Of a DNA stretch of 33,540 nucleotides, positions 1,320 to 27,754 are shown one piece after another (position 1 is the stretch's first letter; the number at the start of each line of letters is the position of its first letter). Both the position numbers and the translations under genes were made by a program. Below the pieces are notes generated by a model. The model saw only the letters and a list, made by a program, of their open reading frames with translations, had not been told where the DNA came from and searched no databases. Origin of the DNA: Desulfobulbaceae bacterium (lineage in GTDB: Bacteria > Desulfobacterota > Desulfobulbia > Desulfobulbales > Desulfobulbaceae); NCBI GenBank assembly GCA_029865005.1, contig JAOTSI010000004.1, forward strand, positions 1-33,540, in the 5' to 3' direction.

Positions 1320-1487
1320 CTAAGGGCCACAGAAAATAATAATTATCCCAAAATTGCGCAGGATTTTTAGTCTTCTTTTTTATCAAGGCAATAGGCGCAT
1401 AGTATAACTATGTAACTGTTGCCTTGATAAAGAAGACGGCTAAAAAGACAAGCAAGATAGGATAATTTATTTTTTCTGCGGCCCTAA
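1320..1487. repeat. Family A palindromic MITE-like element, copy 1 (element 1324-1483 with flanking CTAA on both sides)
   Basis: Terminal inverted repeats GGGCCACAGAAAATAATAATTATCC / GGATAATTTATTTTTTCTGCGGCC; internal arms TTTTAGTCTTCTTTTTTATCAAGGCAA / TTGCCTTGATAAAGAAGACGGCTAAAA; CTAA at 1320-1323 and 1484-1487. Confidence 0.85.
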
Positions 1488-3709: not shown

Positions 3710-4150
3710 ATGAAGCGACCTAAAAAATGGGGAATGGAGCCAGTACTAAAATACAGAAAGCAGATTGAAAGAGTTGCCCAACATGAATATTTTAAATGTT
3801 TAGAACAAGAAGAGATATTAAAAGAACAACTTCTAAAACTAACCAAAGATAATGACCACCTTTTTGCAGCCATAGAAAAAATTAGAACTGCTGGAACTGC
3901 TATAGATCAAATACAACTCTATGAAAACAGGATTTTCTTCCTCAAAACACAACTTGAACAAGTTACAAAAGGGTTGGAAAAACAAAAAACTAAAACGAAC
4001 CTATACCGAAAAAAACTTTTACGGGCAAGCCAAAAAAAGAAGGTTCTTGATCAATTAAAAGATCGACAAAATAAAGCATACCAGAAATTTCTATCAGCAA
4101 AAGAAACAAAAATTCTAGATGAAATTGCCGTTCTTTTTCACAAACGATAA
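3710..4150 (+). CDS. fliJ: Flagellar export chaperone FliJ
   Basis: 146 aa coiled-coil protein directly after fliI; PVLKYRKQIERVAQHEYFKCLEQEEILKEQL is FliJ-like. Confidence 0.8.
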   Translation: MKRPKKWGMEPVLKYRKQIERVAQHEYFKCLEQEEILKEQLLKLTKDNDHLFAAIEKIRTAGTAIDQIQLYENRIFFLKTQLEQVTKGLEKQKTKTNLYRKKLLRASQKKKVLDQLKDRQNKAYQKFLSAKETKILDEIAVLFHKR

Positions 4151-4244
4151 CGTTATTAATCACAGGCACCTCATCTTTACAGGACTGCTCTCGCCCGCAT
4201 AGAGCAACTATAGCGAGCAACTGCATAGGGGAATAAGCGATTAA

Positions 4245-4327
4245 TATTTCAATGTAACTGTTGCCTTAACAAAGAAAACGACAAAAAAACAAGCAAGATG
4301 GGATAATTGATTGTTTTCGTGGCTCTA
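4245..4327. repeat. Family A element, degenerate right half (copy 2)
   Basis: ATGTAACTGTTGCCTTAACAAAGAAAACGACAAAAAAACAAGCAAGATGGGATAATTGATTGTTTTCGTGGCTCTAA aligns with the right half of copy 1 and ends in CTAA. No convincing left half. Confidence 0.7.
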
Positions 4328-4380
4328 AGCCTAAGGCACATATAACTACCAATAACCTTTAGCTTCCTTTGGAATATCCT

Positions 4381-7272: not shown

Positions 7273-8532
7273 ATGGGTATTCAAAGTGCAATGTTCAGCG
7301 GTGTTAGCGGTTTAAATAGCAATGGACAAGCAATGAGCGTTATCGGTAATAACCTAGCGAACACCAACACCATAGGCTTTAAAGGAGCACGCACCGTTTT
7401 CTCTGATTTGCTATCAAGTAGTATCTACGGTTCCGGTGGATTCTCCCAAGTTGGTAGAGGGGTCAACGTCTCTAAAGTAGACAATATCTTTAGTCAAGGA
7501 ACCTTTGAAACCACCTCCTCGGGGACCGATGTAGCCATTGAAGGCGATAGCTTTTTTATACTCAAGCAACCAGGTGATAAAACAGCCTATTACAGTCGCG
7601 CTGGCGCATTTCGTTTTGACGATGAGGGTTTTTTAGTCAACCCCGAAGGATTCCGAGTGCAAGGGAAACAATATGACATTGACGGCAATTTAGTTGCTGG
7701 CGACCCTACCGATATCCAAGTGCTCAATACCGGTTTAATTCCCGCCAACCCCACGACTGCAATGACCTTCAGCACCAACCTGGACGCTGCCACCCCACCC
7801 CTTGTACCAGTAGTACCTTGGGACCCAAACGATACCACCTCTTTTAATTATGGAGCTTCCACTCAAATATATGATTCCTTAGGACAATCCCATCTCGTCT
7901 CAGTTTACTTCACCAAAACAGCCGCTAATACCTGGGACTGGCATTGGTCTGCTCAAGATGTTAACGGCGTCGATATCGGTCAAGTGGCAGGCGCTGGAGC
8001 AGCAGGCAACTTAACCTTCAACCCCGACGGAACCTTACTCGGAGGCGGAATTGCAGCAGTTGGCCCAATTGATTGGGCCAACGGATCAGATCCCTCCAAT
8101 ATCGATATCACCTTTGACACCACCCAATTCGACAGTGAATCAGTGGTTATTTCCCAGGACCAAGACGGCTACGGAGCCGGTAATCTGACCAATGTCGGCA
8201 TCAACTCCGAAGGCGTGGTCATAGCCTCTTATTCTAACGGTGAGCAAATCAAAATTTCTCATCTGGTACTGGGTAAATTTAAAAATAACCAAGGGCTGGA
8301 GCTGGCAGGTTCCAATCTATTCAGCTCAACCGAAGATTCCGGCCCTGCACGAGTAGGCTTGCCCGGTCCAGAACTTGGACAAATATTTACTAATTCCCTA
8401 GAACAATCAAACGTGGATATGGGTCAGGAATTCGTCAAGATGATATCCGCTCAACGTGGATTTCAAGCTAACTCCAAAATTATTTCTACCGTAGATGAAC
8501 TACTCGGAGAGCTTATCAACCTTAAACGATAA
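7273..8532 (+). CDS. flgE: Flagellar hook protein FlgE
   Basis: SAMFSGVSGLNSNGQAMSVIGNNLANTNTIGFKGARTVF N-terminus and LEQSNVDMGQEFVKMISAQRGFQANSKIISTVDELL C-terminus; AGGAGG RBS upstream. Confidence 0.97.
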   Translation: MGIQSAMFSGVSGLNSNGQAMSVIGNNLANTNTIGFKGARTVFSDLLSSSIYGSGGFSQVGRGVNVSKVDNIFSQGTFETTSSGTDVAIEGDSFFILKQPGDKTAYYSRAGAFRFDDEGFLVNPEGFRVQGKQYDIDGNLVAGDPTDIQVLNTGLIPANPTTAMTFSTNLDAATPPLVPVVPWDPNDTTSFNYGASTQIYDSLGQSHLVSVYFTKTAANTWDWHWSAQDVNGVDIGQVAGAGAAGNLTFNPDGTLLGGGIAAVGPIDWANGSDPSNIDITFDTTQFDSESVVISQDQDGYGAGNLTNVGINSEGVVIASYSNGEQIKISHLVLGKFKNNQGLELAGSNLFSSTEDSGPARVGLPGPELGQIFTNSLEQSNVDMGQEFVKMISAQRGFQANSKIISTVDELLGELINLKR

Positions 8533-8606: not shown

Positions 8607-8866
8607 GTATATAGATAACAGCGGCAACTGCACAAACCTGATTCACCTGTAACCACTTACTATTTCGCAGTATATTAAATCAGCTAATAATGCCCCCTGT
8701 GATCAGATACTATTTTTATTCTAGAAATTTTCTTTTTCAGAAGCTGGTCAAAAAACTGACACTCCCTGACTATAACAATCAACCTCCACCTCCTAACCAT
8801 AAGCAACTGCAATCCCAACAAGTTCCATGCAACACAATTTTCTATTTACTCTTTTCTCGTGCTAAC

Positions 8867-8965
8867 TAAGGGGCACGAAAAATAACAACCAGTCCAAATT
8901 CGAAGCCCATGCTTACCTGCCCACGCTTTTTAGTCGTCTTCAAGAAGAAACAACAGAAGAATATC
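8867..8965. repeat. Family A element, half copy (copy 3)
   Basis: CTAA|GGGGCACGAAAAATAACAACCAGTCC ... GCTTACCTGCCCACGCTTTTTAGTCGTCTTC matches the left half of copy 4; the distal half is not recognisable. Confidence 0.6.
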
Positions 8966-8993
8966 AACGCGATGTAACTACTATCCCTGAAAA

Positions 8994-9016
8994 GAAAAGG
9001 GTTAGTTACCCTTTTC
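8994..9016. terminator. Perfect hairpin, possible terminator or attenuator
   Basis: GAAAAGGGT-TAGTT-ACCCTTTTC, 9-bp perfect stem; lacks a T tract beyond the stem. Confidence 0.4.
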
Positions 9017-9045
9017 ACATGCACAGACCTCCAACCATAATCATA

Positions 9046-9231
9046 TTAAGTGCTGCGGAAATAATACATTACCCCATCTAGGAGTCTATCGCTTACCTGC
9101 TTGTCTTTTTAGCCGTCTTCTTTGTCAATGCAACAGTTACATAGCAATATGTATCCGCCTATTACCTCTCTTACAAGACGACTAAAAATCCTGCGCGATT
9201 TTGGGATATTTATTATTTTCCGCGGCCATAA
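9046..9231. repeat. Family A element, full-length, opposite orientation to copy 1 (copy 4, element 9050-9227)
   Basis: GTGCTGCGGAAATAATACATTACCCC ... TTGGGATATTTATTATTTTCCGCGGCC ends; the interior is the reverse complement of copy 1 (GCTTGTCTTTTTAGCCGTCTTCTTTGTCAATGCAACAGTTACATAG; GACGACTAAAAATCCTGCGCGATTTTGGGAT). Confidence 0.85.
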
Positions 9232-22270: not shown

Positions 22271-22633
22271 GTCAGGATGTACGATAACAATGATAGTAAA
22301 ACATAATATCATTCTAGATACAAATTATGTTTTATACAAATTAATTGTATAATATATCCTTTTCACTACAGAACAACAATCGTGTTAGAAAAATACTGAT
22401 TTATATAACTGGCAAGCCTTTCAGGCATAGAAAACTGGAAGTAATTAACAGGTAGGGATGAAGAGAATATTAATACAAAATAACAATAACAAGAAATTAA
22501 CCAAAAACGGATTGAACAATACTAATAATTTACTTTAAACGCCTATGTCTCATTCAATTTACCCGGTTATTAAAGTCGATTCCACTGGAAAAACGAGCAA
22601 CAAGAAAAACTACCTTTTATCCAATATAAATAC

Positions 22634-22745
22634 GTAAGCATTAACAAGCACCACGTCTGCGCGCGATCAGGCCGAATTCACGTGGGATTAATATAACTCA
22701 CCGACCTGCTTGCACACATCCTAAGAAGCACTGGTAAACAATTAC
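22634..22745. repeat. Family B palindromic element, copy 1
   Basis: GTAAGCATTAACAAGCACCACGTCTGCGCGCGATCAGGCCGAATTCACGTGGGATTAATATAACTCACCGACCTG...AGCACTGGTAAACAATTAC aligns along its length with the reverse complement of 25748-25857. Confidence 0.75.
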
Positions 22746-25442: not shown

Positions 25443-25605
25443 TTAAGGTCACGGAAAAATTCAATATCCCAAATTTGCATATTGCCCTTAATCATCTTCA
25501 AAATATGACGAAAGGCACACAGTTATGCGATATAGCTATAGCCTCAACGATAAAAACGGCTAAAAAGACAAATAAATCAGCAGTAAGCTGCGAAACGAAA
25601 TAGTA
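25443..25605. repeat. Family A element, degenerate copy (copy 5)
   Basis: TTAA|GGTCACGGAAAAATTCAATATCCCAAATTTGC left end and AACGGCTAAAAAGACAA internal segment match copy 1; right boundary uncertain. Confidence 0.55.
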
Positions 25606-25747
25606 AAAATATTTTTTTCCCAAACCCCATTTATTATCCTAATCACCAGGTTAACTTACCTTAAACCATGTAAAAATAGATATGGTTCTATACAAGATTC
25701 GAATCTGCTCACCGGGTGGAAAAGAAAAGTTCTATTACATCGGCGTG

Positions 25748-25857
25748 GTAAGCGTTCACCAGTGCTGCGGATATGGCTGATCAGGTCTGTGAGCTATAGT
25801 TATTCCTATGTGAATCCGGCCTAATCTAGCGCAGACGTGGTATTGGTGAACACCTAC
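25748..25857. repeat. Family B palindromic element, copy 2 (inverted relative to copy 1)
   Basis: Ends GTAAGCGTTCACC and GGTGAACACCTAC are inverted repeats; the interior is the reverse complement of 22634-22745 with scattered differences. Confidence 0.8.
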
Positions 25858-26888: not shown

Positions 26889-27556
26889 AACCAGTCTCCC
26901 AACAACACTGACAAATTAACAATATTTAATAATGAATTTAAGATCCAAAAAACGCTTTATAAGAAAAAATACGCAATCCTTTGACTACTAATACAATTAT
27001 TATTATCTCCCTCCCTAATTATTGCAAACACATCACATAAACTACCAAAACGAAATTCAATAGCAAACGACGCTAGACGGAAGATAATAATAAGCATATC
27101 AAAAAATAACCCCATAACCACAAACAACCAAACATAGGACAACATAGCCCTAATAACAGTTGCGCTGGAAAGAAAACAGGACATTATACATTAATTACTT
27201 ATACCAAAAGGTAGTATCTTTAGTAAATACTTTTACAATTAAAGAAGAATTAATACCCTACCGCACCATAACCACAAGCTTATTTAGACTCTCAACTAAT
27301 TATAAAATTATCTACACACAGTTTAAGAATATTAAGTCAAAACACTTTTGTTACATTTTCGTATTCATAACGAAAATAATATTCACTCCTATTCAATTAC
27401 AATATAAGCAGGGAAAAACAATACAATATAGCACAGTTACGCCAAACATAAGTGAAACAAATAAGCGATGAAATGAAATGAAGTCTGGGGAGGGAAAGGG
27501 AATTTTTACAATATCTAATAGATACTAACAAAAACAAGCTATTTTAGACTATAATA

Positions 27557-27684
27557 GGTGCGAAAAATAATATATATCACAAATTCGCTCCAAATTTTCA
27601 GTTATCTTCAAGGAAAGGCGTCAGACGCGTAGCAGGTAAACGCAAACTCCGAAATAGGATAATTTATTTTTCCAGAGGCCCTAA
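27557..27684. repeat. Family A element, short copy (copy 6, element 27557-27680)
   Basis: GGTGCGAAAAATAATATATATCACAAATTCG ... AGGATAATTTATTTTTCCAGAGGCC|CTAA; terminal segments match copies 1 and 3, with a different, shorter interior. Confidence 0.7.
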
Positions 27685-27693
27685 AAAATAAAC

Positions 27694-27731
27694 AAAAAAA
27701 AAGGCACCGGTACATGACCGACGCCTTTTTT
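27694..27731 (-). terminator. Bidirectional terminator hairpin after the beta-helix operon
   Basis: AAAAAAAAAGGC-ACCGGT-ACATG-ACCGAC-GCCTTTTTT, GC-rich stem flanked by A and T tracts; 24 bp beyond the 27755 stop. Confidence 0.85.
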
Positions 27732-27754
27732 CATTCTCTATAAAAGAATATTAA

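Follow-up and report, generated by a model that had tools for sequence, protein, structure and literature searches.

A transposed palindromic element with ISAzo13-type ends and a conserved strand-specific fold between fliG and fliH of a Desulfobulbaceae bacterium

The gap between fliG and fliH in the window (the whole stretch of DNA analysed, 33,540 nucleotides of a Desulfobulbaceae bacterium) contains a palindromic mobile element. It is probably (about 0.78 by our own estimate) a non-autonomous element of ISAzo13 type that carries in its interior a conserved hairpin of structured RNA (or single-stranded DNA). The element and its parts are as follows.

1324–1484, plus strand: mobile element, full length, 161 bp, with borders from an alignment of 30 genomic copies
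1321–1323, no strand: left target-site duplication TAA, based on the identity of left and right TWA in 30 of 32 intact copies
1485–1487, no strand: right target-site duplication TAA, on the same basis
1324–1349, plus strand: left terminal inverted repeat GGGCCACAGAAAATAATAATTATCCC, with the same end type on the ISAzo13-family elements L196 and L259
1459–1484, minus strand: right terminal inverted repeat, with the same end type on ISAzo13-family elements
1354–1368, plus strand: left core motif TTGCGCAGGATTTTT, 5' side of a helix and internal loop, conserved columns across genera in alignments A1 and A3
1447–1458, plus strand: right core motif GACAAGCAAGAT, 3' side of an internal loop and helix, conserved and used for orienting the element
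1364–1446, plus strand: long covarying stem arms and apical part (helices 3–4 of A1, helices 4–6 of A3)
1398–1412, plus strand: apical hairpin CATAG-TATAA-CTATG, whose CATA/TATG stem is nearly invariant in A3

The element encodes no gene. Covariance model R1 matches 1324–1484 over its full length (positions 1–161 of 161; 173 bits, E = 2.7e-40). On its two sides are fliG (252–1256, stop at 1256) and fliH (1542–2336, start at 1542). In 26 of 29 relatives the fliH start precedes the fliG stop, so that the two genes can overlap, and the 285-bp gap seen here is therefore derived. The fliG-fliH regions of the relatives do not contain the element. With the element in this derived gap, a strong mRNA hairpin is expected there.

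As the original prediction proposed, the palindrome covers nearly the full length and has the short CATAG-TATAA-CTATG hairpin at its centre. The terminal inverted repeats pair 1323–1348 with 1460–1485 (26 nt, 85%), and the internal ones pair 1364–1403 with 1407–1446 (40 nt, 83%). The folding energy of the segment is −85.7 kcal/mol, against −31.4 ± 3.6 kcal/mol for shuffled sequences (z = −15; 0 of 200 shuffles).

The element's own genome (G000) is an assembly of 450 contigs, 84% complete. It contains 213 candidate places, and 40 copies were scored and matched. Allowing one mismatch, the end pattern has 164 occurrences and the reversed pattern 3. In an alignment of 30 copies with their flanks, the flanks are unrelated and the borders are sharp. 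The terminal inverted repeats are conserved in every copy compared. The further genomic copies looked for thus number in the dozens.

The same TWA is seen on the left and right of 30 of the 32 intact own-genome copies (TAA/TAA in 19, TTA/TTA in 11), while the next three bases outward agree in 1 of 32. This agreement, lost one step out, indicates that the duplication is 3 bp long and is TWA. At D. japonicum-type loci, TWA is identical in 40 of 64, and the control agrees in 0 of 64. A direct repeat CTAA had been taken as a target-site duplication lying wholly outside the element. A duplication is present, although it is the 3-bp TAA (TWA generally) and not CTAA. Comparison of the copies assigns the C to the element, as the base that closes its ...GGCCC end, and the base before the left TWA is unconstrained (T in 13, C in 8, G in 7, and A in 4 of 32 copies).

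Empty sites are also seen. When one target-site duplication is removed, the joined flanks of four copies (L013, L007, L004, and L025) align to unoccupied copies of other repeat families. One of these is in the window:

25732–25851, no strand: copy of another repeat family with an unoccupied insertion site (CTATAGTTATTCC), to which the joined flanks of L013, L007, and L004 align

The joined flanks of L013 match it at 78% over 120 bp, gap-free across the junction. Those of L007 also align across the junction without gaps, and those of L004 align as well. Further cases are found in D. japonicum. Empty sites had been expected at CTAA, but the junctions carry TWA. Among 77 analysed elements, only one is inside an ORF and nearly all are intergenic; the orientation relative to neighbouring genes is random, with no bias. 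These facts show that the element transposed as a unit into TWA (TNA), duplicating 3 bp. The predicted MITE-like, non-autonomous nature is borne out by its inverted ends, target-site duplication, many copies, and absence of a frame of its own.

The host genome contains a second palindromic family, at least about 120 bp long (GTAAGCGTTCACCAGTGCTGC...CTATAGTTAATCC...GTGAACGCTTAC), with members at 22626–22745 and 25732–25851 of the window and at L004, L006, L007, L013, L023, L028, and L051. The TTAA centre of this family is the landing site of three element copies (L004, L007, and L013). A third repeat family (ACAGGGTTTATAATTACCTGATCTATTATA...) is intergenic in the host, occurs in the flanks of L025, at 8611–8705 of the window, and at L002:1352-1486, and is also an insertion target. 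In D. japonicum, several more multi-copy intergenic repeat families are targets too (L112, L114, L119, L121, L158, L172, L176, L188, and others).

Model R1 was used to scan 196 genomes in 60 genera of the host's order. Homologues, mostly full-length at about 157–162 bp, are found in 47 of these genomes and 28 of these genera, and the length is constant across the 28 genera. A pattern scan of named genomes yielded about 100 stretches, the majority in Desulfogranum japonicum. The remainder are from Desulfobulbaceae, Desulfobacteraceae, Sedimenticola, and Chromatiaceae MAGs; some Gammaproteobacteria (Chromatiaceae, Sedimenticola) thereby also carry the element. A few stretches, among them those of Terrimonas and Lentibacillus, have no such ends and match by chance. 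A search of Rfam 15 gave nothing above the gathering score, only sub-threshold miRNA-hairpin noise.

The fold is conserved while the stem sequence changes. Alignment A1 covers elements of the host, D. japonicum, relatives, and Chromatiaceae over their whole length, with a structure from RNAalifold. Alignment A3 was made from sequence only and takes in 38 elements of many genera. Double changes that keep the pair are seen in 281 cells of A1 (104 when shuffled, 20–76 when slid), and double-change cells number 443 in A3 (140 shuffled, 73–137 slid), where compensatory double changes occur at 45 of 51 pairs. The most conserved stretches include loop motifs (left, TTGCGYNGGAT; right, GACAAGCAAGAT; apex, GCGCATAG...CTATGTAAC), and some of the strongest conservation in the element is in unpaired and asymmetric motifs. 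The covariation exceeds the controls, as in a conserved structured RNA, and is equally compatible with folded single-stranded DNA. It had been listed as evidence against a transposed element; here transposition and a covarying fold both hold.

The fold is also specific to one strand. With the AGACAAGC motif used to set the strand, folding is better for the top than for the bottom strand in 93 of 98 elements, with a median advantage of 15–20 kcal/mol, and in 59 of 60 later finds. For 90 model-found copies, the strand was assigned by the structure-including model. Mismatches in the stem are G.T in 160 cases and A.G in 70, against 32 A.C and 27 C.T, their bottom-strand mirrors. Family consensuses contain 28 G.T and 5 A.C. 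Changes confined to one host-genome copy show symmetry (33 G.T, 43 A.C). In D. japonicum, G.T is in some excess among post-insertion changes (128 versus 83), so a mutational strand bias could contribute. The simplest reading is that the active lineage is selected for the folded top strand and that copies drift once they have landed. As the orientation to neighbours is random and nearly all copies are intergenic, a role in host mRNAs does not select the strand. Such a role is unsupported, and neither a promoter nor a terminator was identified.

MITEs are commonly regarded as insertion-sequence debris. Here, at least 28 genera have kept a strand-specific fold with conserved loops, which implies that the folded molecule itself is under selection. 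In the active (master) lineage, selection has probably been for a top-strand molecule in its folded form, with RNA more likely than single-stranded DNA; the wobble pairs and purine-rich loops make RNA the first choice. As a guess, the folded strand helps the element to spread or to be tolerated, perhaps by binding a protein of the host or a transposase, or by insulating or processing read-through transcripts.

If the selected molecule is single-stranded DNA, the top-strand hairpin would be recognised in replication or transposition, as with attC of integrons, IS200/IS605, and REP elements. A strand-specific hairpin with a variable stem and conserved loops fits this well, and so do the lack of an identified promoter and the unbiased orientation to genes. 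Transposition via single strands leaves no duplication, however, and the exact 3-bp duplications and the inverted ends of a DDE-type family fit double-stranded cut-and-paste. We regard single-stranded DNA as an unlikely but serious alternative.

Somewhat less probable still is an ordinary MITE, derived from an ISAzo13 element by internal deletion, with a palindrome that has no function and is a by-product kept perfect by template switching or arm-to-arm conversion. MITEs often have long palindromes, and paired changes can arise by template switching. The symmetric post-insertion changes in the host genome also agree with this explanation. Conversion should be strand-symmetric, yet the family consensuses are biased to G.T, and the one-strand folding advantage, the conserved unpaired and asymmetric motifs, and the constant length over 28 genera would not be expected from it. 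The element resembles MITEs in being short, geneless, multi-copy, and intergenic, with inverted ends common to full-size insertion sequences and direct target repeats. It differs from them in an interior conserved across genera with a strand-specific covarying fold, and in that an autonomous copy was not found in the same genome.

Sequence comparison shows that the element's ends are of the type borne by ISAzo13-family insertion sequences. L196, in a Chromatiaceae MAG, is a 1,304-bp element with a decayed PF07592 transposase and the duplication TAA/TAA. Its ends, GGGCCGCGGAAAAAATAAATTGTCC and GGGCCACGGAAAAAAAATAATCATCC, agree with the MITE ends over about 25 bp. L259, from the same order as the host, measures 1,400 bp and has an intact transposase frame of 425 aa; its ends, GGGACCCGGAAAAAATAAAACATCCC and GGGACTCGGAAAAAAATAATCATCCC, are similar to the MITE ends. 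With TCA on one flank of L259 and TTA on the other, the duplication there is imperfect. L246 and L248 are ISAzo13 genes in the same family, each with such an end beside it. Several ISAzo13 subgroups have 26-bp ends starting with GG and TNA duplications; identical 3-bp TNA flanks are seen at L195, L196, L240, L243, L245, L258, L260, L262, L272, L276, and others. The element shares with this family (PF07592) the terminal GGG..CGGAAAA..ATCC and the 3-bp TNA duplication. It differs in having no transposase and in its interior; its core motifs are absent from the ISAzo13 elements inspected.

A search for an ISAzo13 transposase (PF07592) was negative in the host genome (84% complete) and in G030, a genome with a 100% completeness estimate and about 120 contigs that is full of the element. 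G030 appears to be Desulfogranum japonicum, based on an element at identical contig coordinates in both (G030:C42:1221-1381, L103). The enzyme that moved the copies is thus inferred from ends in other genomes, and an ISAzo13 transposase would have acted in trans. A search of D. japonicum and host loci for an autonomous copy with paired ends 0.6–6 kb apart gave only pairs of neighbouring MITEs, plus L196/L200. Plasmids searched with the element or its ends gave no significant match. Viral contigs searched with the end pattern gave six single-end matches, among which no paired element was recognised.

The original prediction considered an IS5-like element plausible. TNA duplications and ends starting with GG are found in IS5 subgroups as well, and a non-autonomous element of the IS1031/IS427 kind could be considered on this ground. 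The 4-bp YTAR duplication of the IS5 subgroup is not seen, the duplication being 3 bp. PF13586 has no match in the own genome and PF13340 none in 14 carrier genomes. An IS5-family transposase with matching ends was sought, and the PF01609 loci inspected lack the ends, whereas ISAzo13 loci have them. An IS5 origin is thus very improbable. It is scarcely credible that the flagellar operon has here a structured RNA or regulatory element of its own, encoded by the host and not mobile, since this would fit the strong fold and covariation but not the dozens of copies at unrelated places, the target-site duplications, the empty sites, or the absence from fliG-fliH of relatives.

One core is combined with three types of ends. 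Group (i) has TWA-GGGYCNCGGAAAA. Group (ii) has TNA-GGGACTGTAAGGAAATAA / GGACTTGTGACGAAATAA, which resembles other ISAzo13 ends, such as those of L261 and L262. Group (iii) has CTA-GTGTCGCGTCAACGATGAAATG...TAG (CTA-GTGTC..GACAC-TAG) and retains the common core (L345-L350, L341-L344, L351-L359, L373-L375, L377, L380, L383, and L385). A sequence-only HMM of the type (i) core matches 29 of 29 type (iii) elements (median score 16.6 bits, versus 2.7 for the highest-scoring of 580 shuffles), although these elements were chosen by a structure-including model and the score is therefore supportive, not independent. The type (iii) ends may resemble those of IS481 (TGT..ACA, CTAG target). No parent or transposase with CTA-GTGTC ends was found in viral contigs or plasmids. 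Neither rapid end swapping nor swapping within a genome is supported: the core tree largely tracks the end type, indicating that ends and core evolved together. A wider reading, which we hold tentatively, is that a strand-specific structured RNA of about 160 nt is itself widespread and mobile, travelling as a DNA element with ISAzo13-type ends and, in one lineage, with different, CTAG-associated ends. The unit of selection could then be the folded RNA, around which ends and transposases diversified.

ERIC and YPAL of enterobacteria and bcr1 of the Bacillus cereus group are mobile-like, intergenic repeats of 100–170 bp with a large predicted RNA hairpin. MITEs are already known, as are palindromic mobile repeats with predicted RNA folds (ERIC, bcr1). 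The present element differs from these in sequence, host range, and target (TTTAT for bcr1, TWA here). Its ends also indicate the mobilising family, and its covariation spans an order plus Gammaproteobacteria. The mobility of bcr1 repeats and their association with TTTAT have been reported (PMC6542083). Candidatus Thiomargarita nelsonii, a sulfur bacterium, has abundant palindromic MITEs whose parent insertion sequence was not identified (PMC4853749). Those have 10-bp direct repeats or TATAG ends, and identity with the present element is not indicated. A literature search found no description of the element or of ISAzo13-derived MITEs. The results tie an abundant Desulfobulbaceae-type repeat to the little-studied ISAzo13 family, and R1 is a searchable model for a family missing from Rfam. 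They also open a testable question: do short transposons spread with the help of functional RNAs or single-strand DNA signals of their own?

Other copies of the element are present in the window.

9050–9227, minus strand: second, older full-length copy in the gap after a flgE-type gene (7273–8532); R1 94 bits, E = 4.6e-21; inverted match to 1325–1454
4228–4325 (within 4150–4335), plus strand: decayed or truncated copy downstream of fliJ; R1 E = 6e-4; direct matches D1/D2
27556–27681 (within 27545–27690), plus strand: decayed copy with a well-kept right end (87% match); R1 E = 1e-4

Decayed or truncated relatives are also seen in intergenic positions at 8864–9024 and 25443–25580. The occurrence of decayed relatives in several gaps of the flagellar region and downstream indicates that this region was hit repeatedly. 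Right after the third copy listed, 27686–27740 shows weak similarity to the patAB leader (E = 0.49, below gathering); this stretch is probably an ordinary terminator hairpin. Elsewhere in the host genome, an 84-bp stretch (G000:C422:116-199) consists of two element ends only (TTAGGGCCGCAGAAAATA and inverted TAAGGGCCGCAGAAAAAA), and might be a minimal derivative.
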